The notes beneath the pieces were generated by a model. It was not told the origin of the DNA, ran no database searches, and worked only from the letters and a program-made list of their open reading frames with translations. From assembly GCF_016125515.1 (NCBI RefSeq), contig NZ_WGLO01000008.1:124001-188000 (forward strand): a stretch of DNA of 64,000 bases, read 5' to 3'. The translations under genes were made by a program, and so were the position numbers. Positions 42,628-47,237 of the stretch are shown in pieces. Every line of letters starts with the position of its first letter. Within the stretch, counting starts at the first letter, position 1. The DNA is from Hyphomonas sp. (lineage in GTDB: Bacteria > Pseudomonadota > Alphaproteobacteria > Caulobacterales > Hyphomonadaceae).

Positions 42628-43365
42628 TTAGAGATTCTTGGAAGCTACCTCAACAGCCTCCGCCACCTCAATATCGCCGTCATACAGCGCGCGGCCCAGG
42701 ATTGTGCCTTCGATGGGGGTGCCAGGGGCGGCGCGCAGGCGCCGGATGTCGTCCACGCTGGCAACCCCGCCCGAGGCAATGATTGGTATACGGACGGTAT
42801 TGGCGAGGCCCGAGGTGAAGGCCACGTTCACGCCGGTCTTCAGGCCGTCGCGGCTGATATCGGTGGCGATGATCGCGGCCACGCCGCAATCCTCGAAGGC
42901 GCGGGCGAGGTCCACCGCCGCCATGTCGCTCGTCTCGGCCCAGCCTTCCACCGCCACCATGCCGTCCTTCGCGTCGATGCCCACCACGATCCGGCCGGGC
43001 AGGGCGCGGGCAGCAGTCTTCACCAGTTCCGGATCGCGCAGGGCCACCGTGCCGAGGATGACGCGCGAGATGCCGGCCTCCAGCCAGGCGTCGATCTGCG
43101 CGCGCGTGCGGATGCCGCCGCCGAGCTGAACCGGAGCGGGCGTGGATTTCAGGATCGAGGCGACCGCGTCGCGGTTAACCGGCGCGCCCGCAAAGGCGCC
43201 GTTCAGGTCCACCACATGCAGATGGGTGAAGCCCATCGCGTGAAAGGCGGCGGCCTGGTTGCCGGGATCGGTGTTGAACACCGTGGCCGCGTCCATCTCG
43301 CCGCGCAGCAGGCGCACGCAGGCGCCGTCCTTAAGGTCGATGGCGGGGTAGAGGGTGAAGGTCAT
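42628..43365 (-). CDS. hisA: Phosphoribosylformimino-5-aminoimidazole carboxamide ribotide isomerase
   Basis: 245 residues from ATG 43365, overlapping the hisH stop by four bases; the longer frame is rejected. It opens the ring of ProFAR in the fourth step of histidine synthesis. Marks are [20 protein letters not shown] with the first catalytic Asp, [41 protein letters not shown] with the second Asp, and [16 protein letters not shown]. It is co-translated with hisH. Confidence 0.96.
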
Positions 43366-43994
43366 GGGGTCCAGTTCAGGAAATTGCCGAGCAGTGCCAG
43401 CCCCACCTTCTGGCTCTTCTCCGGGTGGAACTGCGTGCCGAACAGGTTGTCGCGGGCAACCGCCGCCGCGAAGGGCGAGCCGTAATCGCACCAGGCGGCG
43501 ACATCGGCCTCGTTTTCCGGGCGGAAGACATAAGAGTGGGTGAAATAGGCATGCGTGCCCGCGCCGAGCCCGGCGAGCACGGGGTGCGCGTCCGGGAAGG
43601 CGAGCTCGTTCCAGCCGACATGCGGCACCGGCAGGCCGGGCGCGGGCACCAGCCCCTCGACCAGCCCGTGGATCCAGCCGAGGCCGCGCGTCTCGCCGTC
43701 CTCAAGGCCAAGGTCCGCCATCAGCTGCATGCCGACACAGATGCCGAGGAACGGGCGCGCGCGCTTCAGCACGGCGTCTTCCAGCGCTTCGATCATGCCC
43801 GGAACGGCGCGCAGGGCGCCCGCACAGTCGGCAAAGTGGCCGACGCCCGGCAGCACGATCCGGTCGGCGGCGGCGAGGTCGTCCGGCCGGGCGGTGATCT
43901 GGATGTCGTGCGCGCCGGCGGCGGCGGCCACAAGGGCGCGCCCGCACGAGTGCAGGTTGCCGGAGCCATAGTCGATGAGCGCAACGCGGGACAT
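43362..43994 (-). CDS. hisH: Imidazole glycerol phosphate synthase subunit HisH
   Basis: 210 residues from ATG 43994; ATG 44006 would add four residues, and the frame to 44063 adds a non-family head. The class I glutamine amidotransferase gives ammonia to His[21 protein letters not shown] opens it, the nucleophile Cys is in [11 protein letters not shown], and [14 protein letters not shown] holds the His and Glu. It is the first gene of the hisH-hisA pair; hisF is 3 kb away. Confidence 0.94.
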
Positions 43995-44085
43995 GGCCGG
44001 GCTCATAGCGGCGCGGGCGGGCCGTGGCAATTGAGAGGTGTTTGGGGTAATCTGCTGGTCCACGCCGCAAATGCGAGGCTGACCT

Positions 44086-45879
44086 ATGGGGACGAAACCG
44101 AACCAGCCCGCCGGCCCGGCTTCTGCGCCCGGCCCCGCTACGGAATCCGCGAAGGTGTTCCTCTCCTATTCGCGCAAGGACGCTGCCTTTGCCGACGAAC
44201 TGGTGGCCGGCCTGCAGGCCTGCGGCTTCGAGGCCTATATCGACCGGGAAGACATCGCGCCCGGCGAAGCCTGGGAAACGCGACTGTCGGGCCTGATCGC
44301 GGAGGCCGATACGGTCATCTATGTGATCTCGCCGCATTCGGTGAATTCCGAACAATGCCATTGGGAAGTGTCCGAGACGCTGCGGATGTCGAAACGGCTG
44401 TTGCCGGTCGTGTGGGCGCCGGTGCCGGAAACGCAGATGCCGAAGGAACTATCGCGGCTGAATTTCGTGTTCTTCGATGGCGGCAAGAGTTTCGCGCGCG
44501 GTCTCGCCGATCTGGCGCAGGCGTTGCGGGTGGATGTCGGCTGGATCCGCGAGCATTCACGCCTCGGCGCGCTCGCCCGGCGCTGGGATGCACGCGGGCG
44601 GCCGGACGAAGCGCTGCTGCGCGGCGAGGAGCTGAACGCGGCGCGCGACTGGGCGGCGGCCCGGCCGCCCAGCGCGCCGGCGCTGACCGATCTGCACTCG
44701 GATCATATTGCCGCAAGCCTTGCCGCGCGTGAGGCCGCCGAGCGCGAGGCCCGGGTCAAACGGCGCGGCGCGGTGGTCCTGTCGATGCTGGTCGCAGGCG
44801 CCATGACGCTGCTGGCAGCCGGGGCTGGCTGGCAGGCCCTCGAGGCGCTCGAGGCGAAGAAGGTCCAGGAGAACCTGAAGGTGCAGGCCATCGCGGCACT
44901 CGATGCGCTGGACGTGAAAACAAACGAGCTGGAGAAATCAAACCTACGTCTGTCTGCGGACATTGCGCTGCGCGCGCCGCCCTCGGGCGCGAGATACGTG
45001 ACGATCCAGGGCGGCTGGTTTCCGCTGGCTGCGAAGTTCTCCGGCGCCATCGCCAAGGTCGAGCGGCAGGATGCGGAGGGCCGGCTCGCCGCCGCTCAGT
45101 CCGGCATGCTGATCGATGGCAGCCTGCTGCGCGGCGGCGATACCGGCACCTATCTCCTCGTGCCCGCCATGCGCAGCGTGGCGGAGGATGCCGCCGCATT
45201 CGTGCTGCCCAACGCCTTCGTTCCCGGTGCGGACGAGTCCAGCCCGCCGGTCGAAGATGGATTCGAAGCCGGCGAAGTGCCGCTGGATGCACCGCCGCTG
45301 GAACAGAAAATTGTCAATTTCACGTCTGCCGGGCCGCCGGTCAGCCTGCGTGCGCTGTTCCCGGTGCTCGATGGCGAGACCTGGATCAAGGGGGCGGAGC
45401 TGATCTGGTCGACGCCCATGCACATGAGCGGGGTAGATCCGTTCGAACTCTGGCGGCTCGACGCGCCGCCGCCCTTCGGCGCGCGGCCGCTGGTAAGCGA
45501 AGACATCGCCTGTAGCATCCTGGAAGGGGAGGTGAGCCCGGCCAACATGCCGGGCCGGCCGCTGGCCCTTTACGGCATCGGCGACGCCGCCTTGGGCGGG
45601 CAGGCGGTCACCCTTTTCGTGTCGGAGCTCGAAGACGCGTCTGATCCGTACAGGATCTATTATGCCCATTCGACCACGCTTGGCGCCTTCGGTGCGCCAG
45701 TGTTCGACCTGACCAGCGGGCAGGTCGTTGCCGTGCATATCGGCTCGGTTCCCGGAATCCGGCTCGACAGTCCGCGCAGCGGGTTCGGCGTGGCCCTGCC
45801 GATGATCCTCGACCAGATCCGGCAGGAGATCGACCCGGCCGAGGGCACCACGCCGCTCGACCTGATCTGCCCCGCCTGA
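44086..45879 (+). CDS. TIR-transmembrane protein with degenerate trypsin-like C-terminal domain
   Basis: 597 residues. The TIR domain spans about 22-150 (KVFLSYSRKDAAFADELV, SPHSVNSEQCHWEVSET), with Glu94 as the likely NADase Glu. A charged linker (GRPDEALLRGEELNAARDW) of a type common in TIR/repeat proteins leads to one membrane helix (229-249) and a coiled coil (250-295). The C-terminal 300 residues fit a trypsin-type fold. YLLVPAMR at 356-363 aligns with the TNAHV strand, DPFELWRLDAPPP near 451 with the Asp strand, and GAFGAPVF at 533-540 with GSSGSPVF. The catalytic His is then Met362 and the Ser Phe535, so it would be a pseudo-protease. It lies between hisH and the CNNM gene. Function unknown. 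Confidence 0.85.
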   Translation: MGTKPNQPAGPASAPGPATESAKVFLSYSRKDAAFADELVAGLQACGFEAYIDREDIAPGEAWETRLSGLIAEADTVIYVISPHSVNSEQCHWEVSETLRMSKRLLPVVWAPVPETQMPKELSRLNFVFFDGGKSFARGLADLAQALRVDVGWIREHSRLGALARRWDARGRPDEALLRGEELNAARDWAAARPPSAPALTDLHSDHIAASLAAREAAEREARVKRRGAVVLSMLVAGAMTLLAAGAGWQALEALEAKKVQENLKVQAIAALDALDVKTNELEKSNLRLSADIALRAPPSGARYVTIQGGWFPLAAKFSGAIAKVERQDAEGRLAAAQSGMLIDGSLLRGGDTGTYLLVPAMRSVAEDAAAFVLPNAFVPGADESSPPVEDGFEAGEVPLDAPPLEQKIVNFTSAGPPVSLRALFPVLDGETWIKGAELIWSTPMHMSGVDPFELWRLDAPPPFGARPLVSEDIACSILEGEVSPANMPGRPLALYGIGDAALGGQAVTLFVSELEDASDPYRIYYAHSTTLGAFGAPVFDLTSGQVVAVHIGSVPGIRLDSPRSGFGVALPMILDQIRQEIDPAEGTTPLDLICPA

Positions 45880-45929: not shown

Positions 45930-47237
45930 ATGGACCTCATCATTCTTCTTGCGCTGATCGCGCTGAACGGCCTGTTCGCTCTGTCCGAACTCGCCATCGT
46001 GTCTTCCCGCCACACGCGGCTGCAGTTGCGCGCCGAAAAGGGCGACCGGGGCGCCAAGGCCGCGCTGCGCCTGCAGGCCGATCCTTCGCGCTTCCTGTCC
46101 ACTGTGCAGGTAGGCATCACGCTGATCGGCATTATTGCGGGCGCCTATGGCGCCACCGCCCTGGCCGAGGATCTCGCGCCCTGGATCGCGCGGACGATGC
46201 CGCCGCTGCAGCATCAGGCCGGGCTGATCGCTTTCGGTGTGGTGATCGCGGCGACGACCTACCTGTCGCTCGTCATCGGCGAGCTGGTGCCGAAGCGGAT
46301 CGCGATGACCGCGCCGGAAGCCTTCGCCTGCGCGATTGCGCCGCCCATGGCCTTACTCTCGCGGGTAGCCTTTCCGCTCGTGTTCGTCTTGCGTGGCTCG
46401 ACCAACCTGATCCTCGGCATCTTGGGTCTGGCGAAGGTCAACACCCATCAGGTCACGGAAGAAGAGATCGAAAGCGTGATCGAGGAAGGCGCCGCGAGCG
46501 GCGCGATCGAAGACGGCGAGCGCACGATGATCCGCAGCGTGATGCGCCTCGCCGACCGCGACGTGCGCTCGATCATGACCTCGCGCAAGGATGTGGTCTG
46601 GCTCGACCTTGACGATCCGCCGCAGGACCTGCTGAAGCGGATGGCAGAGAGCGGCCATTCCCGTTTTCCGGTCGCGCGCGATGACCTCGAGAAAGTGATC
46701 GCAATCGTTCAGACCAAGGATCTTCTGGCGCAATCCGGCGGCTGCCGGATACCGGACTTCGAGGCGGCCGGGCATCCGCCCTTGTTCGTGCCGGATACGA
46801 TGACGGTCCTGAACCTGCTCGAGAATCTCCAGAAAAGCCCGGTACAGCTCGCACTGGTCGTTGATGAGCTGGGACACGTCGAAGGCATCGTGACGGCCGC
46901 CGATGTGCTCGGCGCGATTGCCGGCGATGTCGCCTTCTCGGACGGTGATGGCCTGGCGCGCCCGCAGAAGCGCGAAGACGGCTCCTGGCTGATCGACGGA
47001 CGCATGGCGCTGGAGGATCTGGAGATCGTTCTCGGCACGGATGTCCGGAGCGAGGAGGACGCCTCCTTCGCCACCGCCGCCGGCCTCGTGATCCATCATC
47101 TCCAGCGCGTGCCGCAGTTGTCCGACACGATCGTCTCGAACGGCTGGCGGTTCGAAGTGATCGACATGGATGACCGGCGGATCGACAAGCTGCTGCTGTC
47201 GCGCCTGCCGGCCCGTGACGAAGACCCGACCGGCTGA
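45930..47237 (+). CDS. CNNM/HlyC-CorC family membrane protein
   Basis: 435 residues. The N-terminal DUF21 domain has four hydrophobic segments starting LIILLALIALNGLFALSELAIVSSR. Two CBS domains follow at about 205-325 (MTSRKDVVWLDLDD, HSRFPVARDDLEKVIAIVQTKDLL, LALVVDELGHVEGIVTAADVLG). A CorC_HlyC domain ends the protein (SWLIDGRMALEDLEIVLG). Members move or sense Mg/Co ions. It is a paralogue of the protein at 58626. It may follow the TIR gene on one message, and its stop is two bases from the convergent carotenoid oxygenase stop. Confidence 0.93.
   Translation: MDLIILLALIALNGLFALSELAIVSSRHTRLQLRAEKGDRGAKAALRLQADPSRFLSTVQVGITLIGIIAGAYGATALAEDLAPWIARTMPPLQHQAGLIAFGVVIAATTYLSLVIGELVPKRIAMTAPEAFACAIAPPMALLSRVAFPLVFVLRGSTNLILGILGLAKVNTHQVTEEEIESVIEEGAASGAIEDGERTMIRSVMRLADRDVRSIMTSRKDVVWLDLDDPPQDLLKRMAESGHSRFPVARDDLEKVIAIVQTKDLLAQSGGCRIPDFEAAGHPPLFVPDTMTVLNLLENLQKSPVQLALVVDELGHVEGIVTAADVLGAIAGDVAFSDGDGLARPQKREDGSWLIDGRMALEDLEIVLGTDVRSEEDASFATAAGLVIHHLQRVPQLSDTIVSNGWRFEVIDMDDRRIDKLLLSRLPARDEDPTG

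Follow-up and report, generated by a model that had tools for sequence, protein, structure and literature searches.

A membrane protein of a marine bacterium, Hyphomonas sp., joins an inner half that resembles NAD-cutting immune enzymes to an outer half that has the shape of trypsin and is dead as a protease; because the residues that do the cutting are lost in every relative we found, the outer half is probably a sensor. The gene lies in a 64,000-nucleotide stretch of DNA, analysed as a whole and here called the window, and its reading frame of 597 amino acids and residue numbering agree with the sequence-only reading that had drawn attention to it (Table 1). Upstream stands hisH, a divergent neighbour that is outside the system and is surrounded by further his genes, as judged by sequence; the CNNM/CorC-type gene found downstream directly adjoins hisH in several genomes of Hyphomonas that lack the TIR gene. 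The gene sits among such housekeeping genes, with no obvious defence island, and a promoter and terminator scan found nothing. Recent foreign origin, considered on compositional grounds, was rejected, as GC and GC3 of the gene match those of its neighbours. The window also holds a second TIR protein (248-2104, + strand), with an N-terminal TIR domain (PF13676, E 2.5e-21) followed by TPR repeats.

Table 1. Positions within the window of the gene, its parts and its two neighbours.
Feature	Residues	Position	Strand	Remarks
hisH (imidazole glycerol phosphate synthase glutaminase subunit)		43362..44063	-	PF00117, E 3.2e-21
Whole gene: TIR - linker - TM - coiled stalk - trypsin-fold pseudoprotease		44086..45879	+	
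TIR domain	24-142	44155..44511	+	PF13676, E 2.8e-24
Glu94 codon	94	44365-44367	+	SARM1-type Glu by alignment; invariant
Conserved helical linker	~151-222	44536..44751	+	Common to other TIR-TM proteins
Single transmembrane helix	~229-247	44770..44826	+	Kyte-Doolittle scan
Fast-evolving stalk	~253-287	44842..44946	+	Predicted helical
First beta-barrel	~288-364	44947..45177	+	
His position, Met362	362	45169-45171	+	First barrel
Disordered, acidic, proline-rich insert	~365-410	45178..45315	+	pLDDT <50
Second beta-barrel and C-terminal helix	~411-597	45316..45876	+	
Cys476 codon	476	45511-45513	+	Invariant
Ser position, Phe535	535	45688-45690	+	Second barrel
His551 codon	551	45736-45738	+	Invariant
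Cys595 codon	595	45868-45870	+	Invariant
CNNM/CorC-type membrane protein		45930..47237	+	PF01595, CBS, CorC_HlyC; downstream neighbour

Several lines of comparison support well the assignment of the C-terminal domain to the two-barrel trypsin fold (chymotrypsin-like, S1), as predicted from models and profiles. A single-sequence search matched Pfam Trypsin_2 (PF13365) weakly, at E 0.07 for the whole protein and 0.032 for the C-terminal half alone (15.4 bits, under the cut-off of 27.6), and 7 of 11 relatives also match it, with a best E of 0.0011. A profile of 11 relatives, by contrast with the single sequence, retrieves genuine Trypsin_2 proteases, with both catalytic motifs aligned at the expected places: around the His, GLVIDGELLHPAYAGKALLLTPAF pairs with GFVVDGEVLNPDWAGRSLIVSNHHV (L054), placing LLTPAF opposite SNHHV/TNAHV, and around the Ser, YTHSTLKGATGAPVFDLTTGKVVAVH pairs with YRTPSMPGSSGSPVFEAGTWKLVGVH, placing GATGAPVF opposite GSSGSPVF/GNSGSPVF. 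An AlphaFold2 model of residues 284-597, of moderate confidence (9 sequences; mean pLDDT 65.5, core blocks ~80-87, pTM 0.71) bears out the trypsin-type layout that had been read from the letters: its best Foldseek matches in the PDB are trypsin-fold proteins, namely DegS, DegP, Deg1, MarP and RsgI9 (E ~1e-8, probability 1.00), with a TM-score of up to 0.73 when normalised to the DegS and MarP protease domains. A separate full-length model was poor (mean pLDDT 56.8); its C-terminal half matches V8 and Spl proteases and its N-terminal half TIR domains. HtrA proteins usually carry PDZ domains; no PDZ domain was detected in this protein, which, with catalysis also lost, falls outside the HtrA (DegS/DegP) group.

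The same profile alignment with genuine proteases upholds the proposal that Met362 replaces the catalytic His and Phe535 the Ser. Whether relatives retain these residues had been left as a check, and none does: the 12 intact members show M,M,I,-,-,F,F,E,D,F,F,F at the position of the His and F,L,M,G,T,F,F,G,G,T,T,F at that of the Ser, giving 0 of 12 for either residue, and no relative with a full triad on the same TIR-TM module occurs among the 12 family members. The loss of His and Ser is therefore well supported, on these alignments, as a family-wide and ancestral trait and not the fate of a single decayed copy. Asp451 had been noted as remaining, but its column (D,D,Y,Y,K,E,P,R,E,P,A,P) is unconserved in the 12 members and stands at the 93rd percentile of variability, so the Asp is coincidental and carries no weight; as a catalytic remnant it is rejected. 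The catalytic His, Asp and Ser that define an active S1/Trypsin_2 peptidase are accordingly not present as a set. Directly after the lost His position lies the disordered insert, whose length varies across the alignment.

Loss of catalysis has not released the domain from constraint. Despite identities of 22-75%, 22 columns of the C-terminal domain are invariant across the 12 members, among them W311, W441, G465, R467, D473, C476, Y526, G536, V539, H551 and C595, of which G536, V539 and H551 lie beside the lost catalytic sites. Compared with the closest orthologue, from another Hyphomonas genome (75% identity), the two barrel halves give dN/dS (NG86) values of 0.23-0.27, the TIR domain 0.15 and the whole gene 0.25 (589 codons). 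Taken together, the invariant columns and the low dN/dS lend good support, at the sequence level, to the conclusion that the domain is under purifying selection though dead, being maintained without catalysis. Part of what is maintained may be the substrate pocket. H551 aligned with the His of V8/Spl-type proteases in a weak PDB profile search covering the Ser region only, and in glutamyl endopeptidases the S1 pocket is formed by His213 with Thr/Ser190 (PMC5508998); the column of T530, five positions ahead of the lost Ser, holds Thr in 9 of the 12 members and Val in 3. H551 is a probable S1-pocket His by this alignment, and the pocket would then appear to have been kept; since active relatives also carry H551, it may instead be structural or inherited.

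At the other end of the protein, the TIR domain scores 86.4 bits against the PF13676 cut-off of 28. The claim of an intact TIR with a likely NADase residue at Glu94 holds: the Glu is invariant in the 11 aligned family members and occupies the SARM1 catalytic position in an alignment made through a relative (L058), whose equivalent residue pairs with the Glu of HKEIVTAL. That Glu is the catalytic E642 of SARM1. In the full-length model the TIR half matches the NADase TIRs of SPARTA and SARM1 and also scaffold TIRs, and the TIR profile matches scaffold TIRs (TLR, MyD88) as well as it does NADase TIRs. Two members from one genus, g6 (L011 and L013), have a strongly diverged TIR in which the Glu is retained. 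Because scaffold TIRs match too and the domain has diverged in that genus, NADase activity is likely, and we would put it no higher. In L011 and L013 the SYSRKD and REDIAPGE motifs are gone while the Glu is kept, and these two proteins are possibly a pseudo-TIR joined to a pseudoprotease. The window's genome (G000, 3.2 Mb) contains at least 11 TIR domain matches and looks like a rich TIR repertoire.

Between the two domains, the membrane helix that had been proposed is predicted as a single transmembrane segment with a positive-inside charge pattern: net charge is +3 on the N-side and -1 on the C-side in the window protein, and the N-side is the more positive in 11 of 11 members scanned. This pattern suggests a topology with the TIR domain cytoplasmic and the C-terminal domain periplasmic. 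All 11 members scanned have exactly two cysteines beyond the helix, and the full set of 12 conserves both without exception, a pattern expected of a disulfide outside the cytoplasm; they are candidates for a periplasmic disulfide with each other. The stalk, which leads into a C-terminal domain of 300 residues, shares 31% amino-acid identity with the closest orthologue, and residues 247-296 form a helix in the full-length model, at low confidence.

The family appears to be confined and patchy. A family profile run over 105 genomes of Hyphomonadaceae identified 12 intact genes in 6 of 10 genera, a count that leaves out weak matches to other trypsins and one decayed copy; named records among the close relatives are Hyphomonas and Hyphomonadaceae. 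A search for spread outside the Hyphomonadaceae, in 385 class-level and 398 phylum-level genomes, gave no new member, and a single-protein search for plasmid or phage carriage gave no match. In the window's genome and in G020 the gene occupies the hisH-CorC junction, from which it is cleanly absent in at least 10 Hyphomonas (L095-L099, L103, L104, L107-L109), and a sister Hyphomonas, G014, has a broken copy at the same site, split into several frames with its middle missing (L100; L068:6400-8504). L058, L059, L061, L065 and L070 have the gene close to a pair of GT2/PMT-like glycosyltransferases, at what their shared neighbours indicate is one and the same locus. Scattered presence, the broken copy and the clean absences mark it, on comparative grounds, as an accessory gene with gain and loss, set amid housekeeping genes and of host-like composition. 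Family neighbourhoods in general are of the housekeeping kind and vary by genus (his genes, CorC, GT2/PMT-like glycosyltransferases, rimM/trmD, groEL, P450). No conserved partner gene was seen in the neighbourhoods examined, comprising the window and related loci (retrieved with a 6-row subset of the 11-row alignment), which fits a sensor and effector combined in one chain.

The TIR-linker-TM module is not restricted to this family. In these bacteria it recurs with beta-propeller ectodomains (L012, L017, L087) and with ectodomains that have no Pfam name (L020, L123-L127), and the C-domain profile matches none of 11 other module-bearing proteins. With different ectodomains on one TIR-linker-TM, the arrangement looks like a modular inside-out receptor and resembles, as far as its domain composition tells, a receptor module with interchangeable ectodomains. 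Another protease fold also follows the membrane helix in L018:1462-3153, where the module carries a caspase-like ectodomain (PF00656, E 1.8e-10, partial).

In several Hyphomonas genomes, the window's own included, a TIR-TM-WD40 gene adjoins a TPR-S-trypsin gene, and from this one locus type a functional link between TIR-TM proteins and trypsins is plausible. The copy in the window's genome (L087:4369-13013; G000:C25) runs from TIR-TM-WD40 to TPR-S-trypsin and a DUF1353 gene, and its trypsin keeps TNDHV and GNSGSPV. The locus is kept in several Hyphomonas (L088-L090), while L092 is without the TIR gene in the stretch read. Two versions encode an additional small protein that begins with a TIR and ends in an OmpA-type domain (L088:8471-9553 and L090:8559-9611; PF00691, E 1.5e-11, scanned in L088), and another places a separate GH108/peptidoglycan-binding protein between the TIR and trypsin genes (L089:5539-7428). 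At 1e-4 no PADLOC model recognises the locus, which may represent a conflict system not yet described.

We consider the chances even that the window protein is a single-pass, one-protein receptor in which ligand sensing by a periplasmic pseudoprotease controls a TIR NADase in the cytoplasm. On this account, with the TIR on the cytoplasmic and the C-terminal domain on the periplasmic side, as the topology implies, the catalytic His and Ser would have been lost before the family diverged, the fold and the probable substrate-pocket residues being kept, as the predicted fold and alignments suggest. The old substrate cleft of the domain would receive a ligand, a peptide or protein being the likeliest; binding would rearrange the helical stalk, membrane helix and linker so that TIR domains assemble; and the assembled TIRs, if they behave as others of their family do, would cleave NAD through Glu94, the loss of NAD or a resulting signal then stopping or killing the cell upon envelope attack or phage infection. 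A role in defence or envelope stress is what we infer. As to the ligand, a glycan, for which RsgI9 and its protease-like domain provide a parallel, would fit as well as a damaged protein, and so would a protein of phage or bacterial origin. An outer sensor is consistent with the purifying selection, the invariant H551, the two invariant cysteines and the interchangeable ectodomains. A narrower version, an inside-out Toll-like receptor in which a non-cutting peptide receptor with its pocket kept switches on a TIR NADase as one of a set with interchangeable ectodomains, we put forward tentatively, as a possibility somewhat short of even.

What the outer domain binds is the point on which two alternatives part from this proposal. 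It might be a glycan or cell-wall sensor using a new binding surface as in RsgI9, the TIR answering wall damage or polysaccharide and not peptide; the S1C-NTF2 structure of RsgI9 (7sjy) is among the best structural matches, and GH108 is one of the peptidoglycan-active domains also encoded at TIR/trypsin loci in sister genomes. We think this unlikely, for the conserved or nearly conserved cleft-side H551 and T530 fit peptide binding more directly and no carbohydrate-binding module was detected in the protein. Or the dead domain could be a guarded decoy that mimics the genome's active trypsins, so that a phage's or competitor's inhibitor of these would bind it and trip the TIR. Inactive copies have been proposed as decoys in conflict systems (PMC7159879), outside the family the profile's nearest matches are for the most part trypsins of the conflict type (TPR-S-trypsin, NucA-trypsin), and next to its TIR-TM-WD40 gene the same genome has a TPR-S-trypsin whose motifs are intact; yet the genes for the pseudoprotease and the TPR-S-trypsin are unlinked there, identity between their domains is low, and active conflict trypsins of the TPR-S type, with no visible membrane anchor here, may act in the cytoplasm. 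We regard such a decoy as quite improbable.

Other alternatives concern whether either domain works as supposed. That the TIR is a scaffold, recruiting another TIR or signalling protein upon ligand binding, gains from the equally good profile matches to TLR and MyD88, from the many typical residues lost in one genus and from the possible partners among the genome's TIR proteins, but the catalytic-position Glu is invariant even in that diverged genus, and we judge a scaffold role a poor prospect. A protease with shifted residues might be suspected from L004, L008 and L009, where a Ser stands one residue upstream of the lost one, in A-S-G-G-(A/S)-P; these three still have no His, however, no member has a His at the His column, most have no Ser nearby, and a variable disordered insert directly follows the His position, so that surviving proteolysis is very hard to credit. 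Equally hard to sustain is a decaying, functionless former TIR-protease: the broken copy in G014 and the empty sites elsewhere would suit it, but the frame is open in 12 genomes, dN/dS is well below 1 in both domains and the 22 invariant C-domain residues persist across the family's range of identity.

Were the receptor proposal true, a dead protease gating a TIR across the membrane would amount to a bacterial receptor with the layout of an animal Toll receptor, and transmembrane signalling by a bacterial TIR would be directly testable within one protein; the family also offers a clear example of a protease fold that selection has retained although all members lost catalysis. To our knowledge, the bacterial TIR NADases whose trigger has been worked out detect infection from within the cell. 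The SARM1 and SPARTA NADases share with the window protein the TIR fold and the Glu at the catalytic position; they are gated by ARM/SAM or Argonaute domains, whereas here a membrane-bound pseudoprotease is the proposed gate. For Thoeris, no ThsA stands next door, the neighbours being hisH and the CorC-type gene, and ThsB_TIR scores 15.9 bits against a cut-off of 21.2; the NCBIfam model ThcB4 scores 45 against a cut-off of 220. Among PADLOC anti-phage models none matches at full length, the TIR part alone matching.

Catalysis-lost trypsin folds in conflict-type bacterial proteins, proposed to be peptide binders or dominant negatives, were described in 2020 (PMC7159879) and share with the present domain the fold, the loss of catalysis and that type of protein; they are fused to a vWA component with MoxR/vWA neighbours, unlike the domain here, which follows a TIR, linker and membrane helix. 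The neighbours examined, from the window and from related loci and partly profile-scanned, include no MoxR AAA+/vWA gene of the MoxR-vWA ternary systems, and in the same loci no NucA with an active trypsin-like neighbour, as in Kaur system 3, was recognised; L042, a NucA-trypsin protein that the C-domain profile matches weakly, is unlinked. Membrane-anchored HtrA-type proteases and MarP (Rv3671c) likewise have a TM segment followed by a periplasmic trypsin-fold domain, but are catalytically active and have no TIR. In module order the closest likeness is to TIR-TM-WD40 proteins (for example L087:4369-7989), with an N-terminal TIR, linker, one TM and a C-terminal ectodomain, there a beta-propeller, encoded in Hyphomonas beside the TPR-S-trypsin gene. 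RsgI9 of Clostridium thermocellum (PDB 7sjy), a close structural match, is a single-pass transmembrane sensor whose protease-like outer domain is able to bind cellulose (PMC12203970); on the inside it has an anti-sigma module in place of a TIR, and it includes an extra NTF2-like domain. Toll-like receptors, compared only for how they work, also couple a ligand-binding ectodomain through a single TM to a cytoplasmic TIR; the window protein is reversed, with its TIR N-terminal, has no LRRs and carries an unrelated ectodomain. The sequence-only reading had known of no description of this form, and we found none in the open-access literature for a TIR, membrane helix and pseudoprotease in one protein. 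Both trypsins without catalysis in conflict systems and sensor ectodomains that resemble proteases are already known; what is apparently new is their combination with a TIR domain through a membrane helix.
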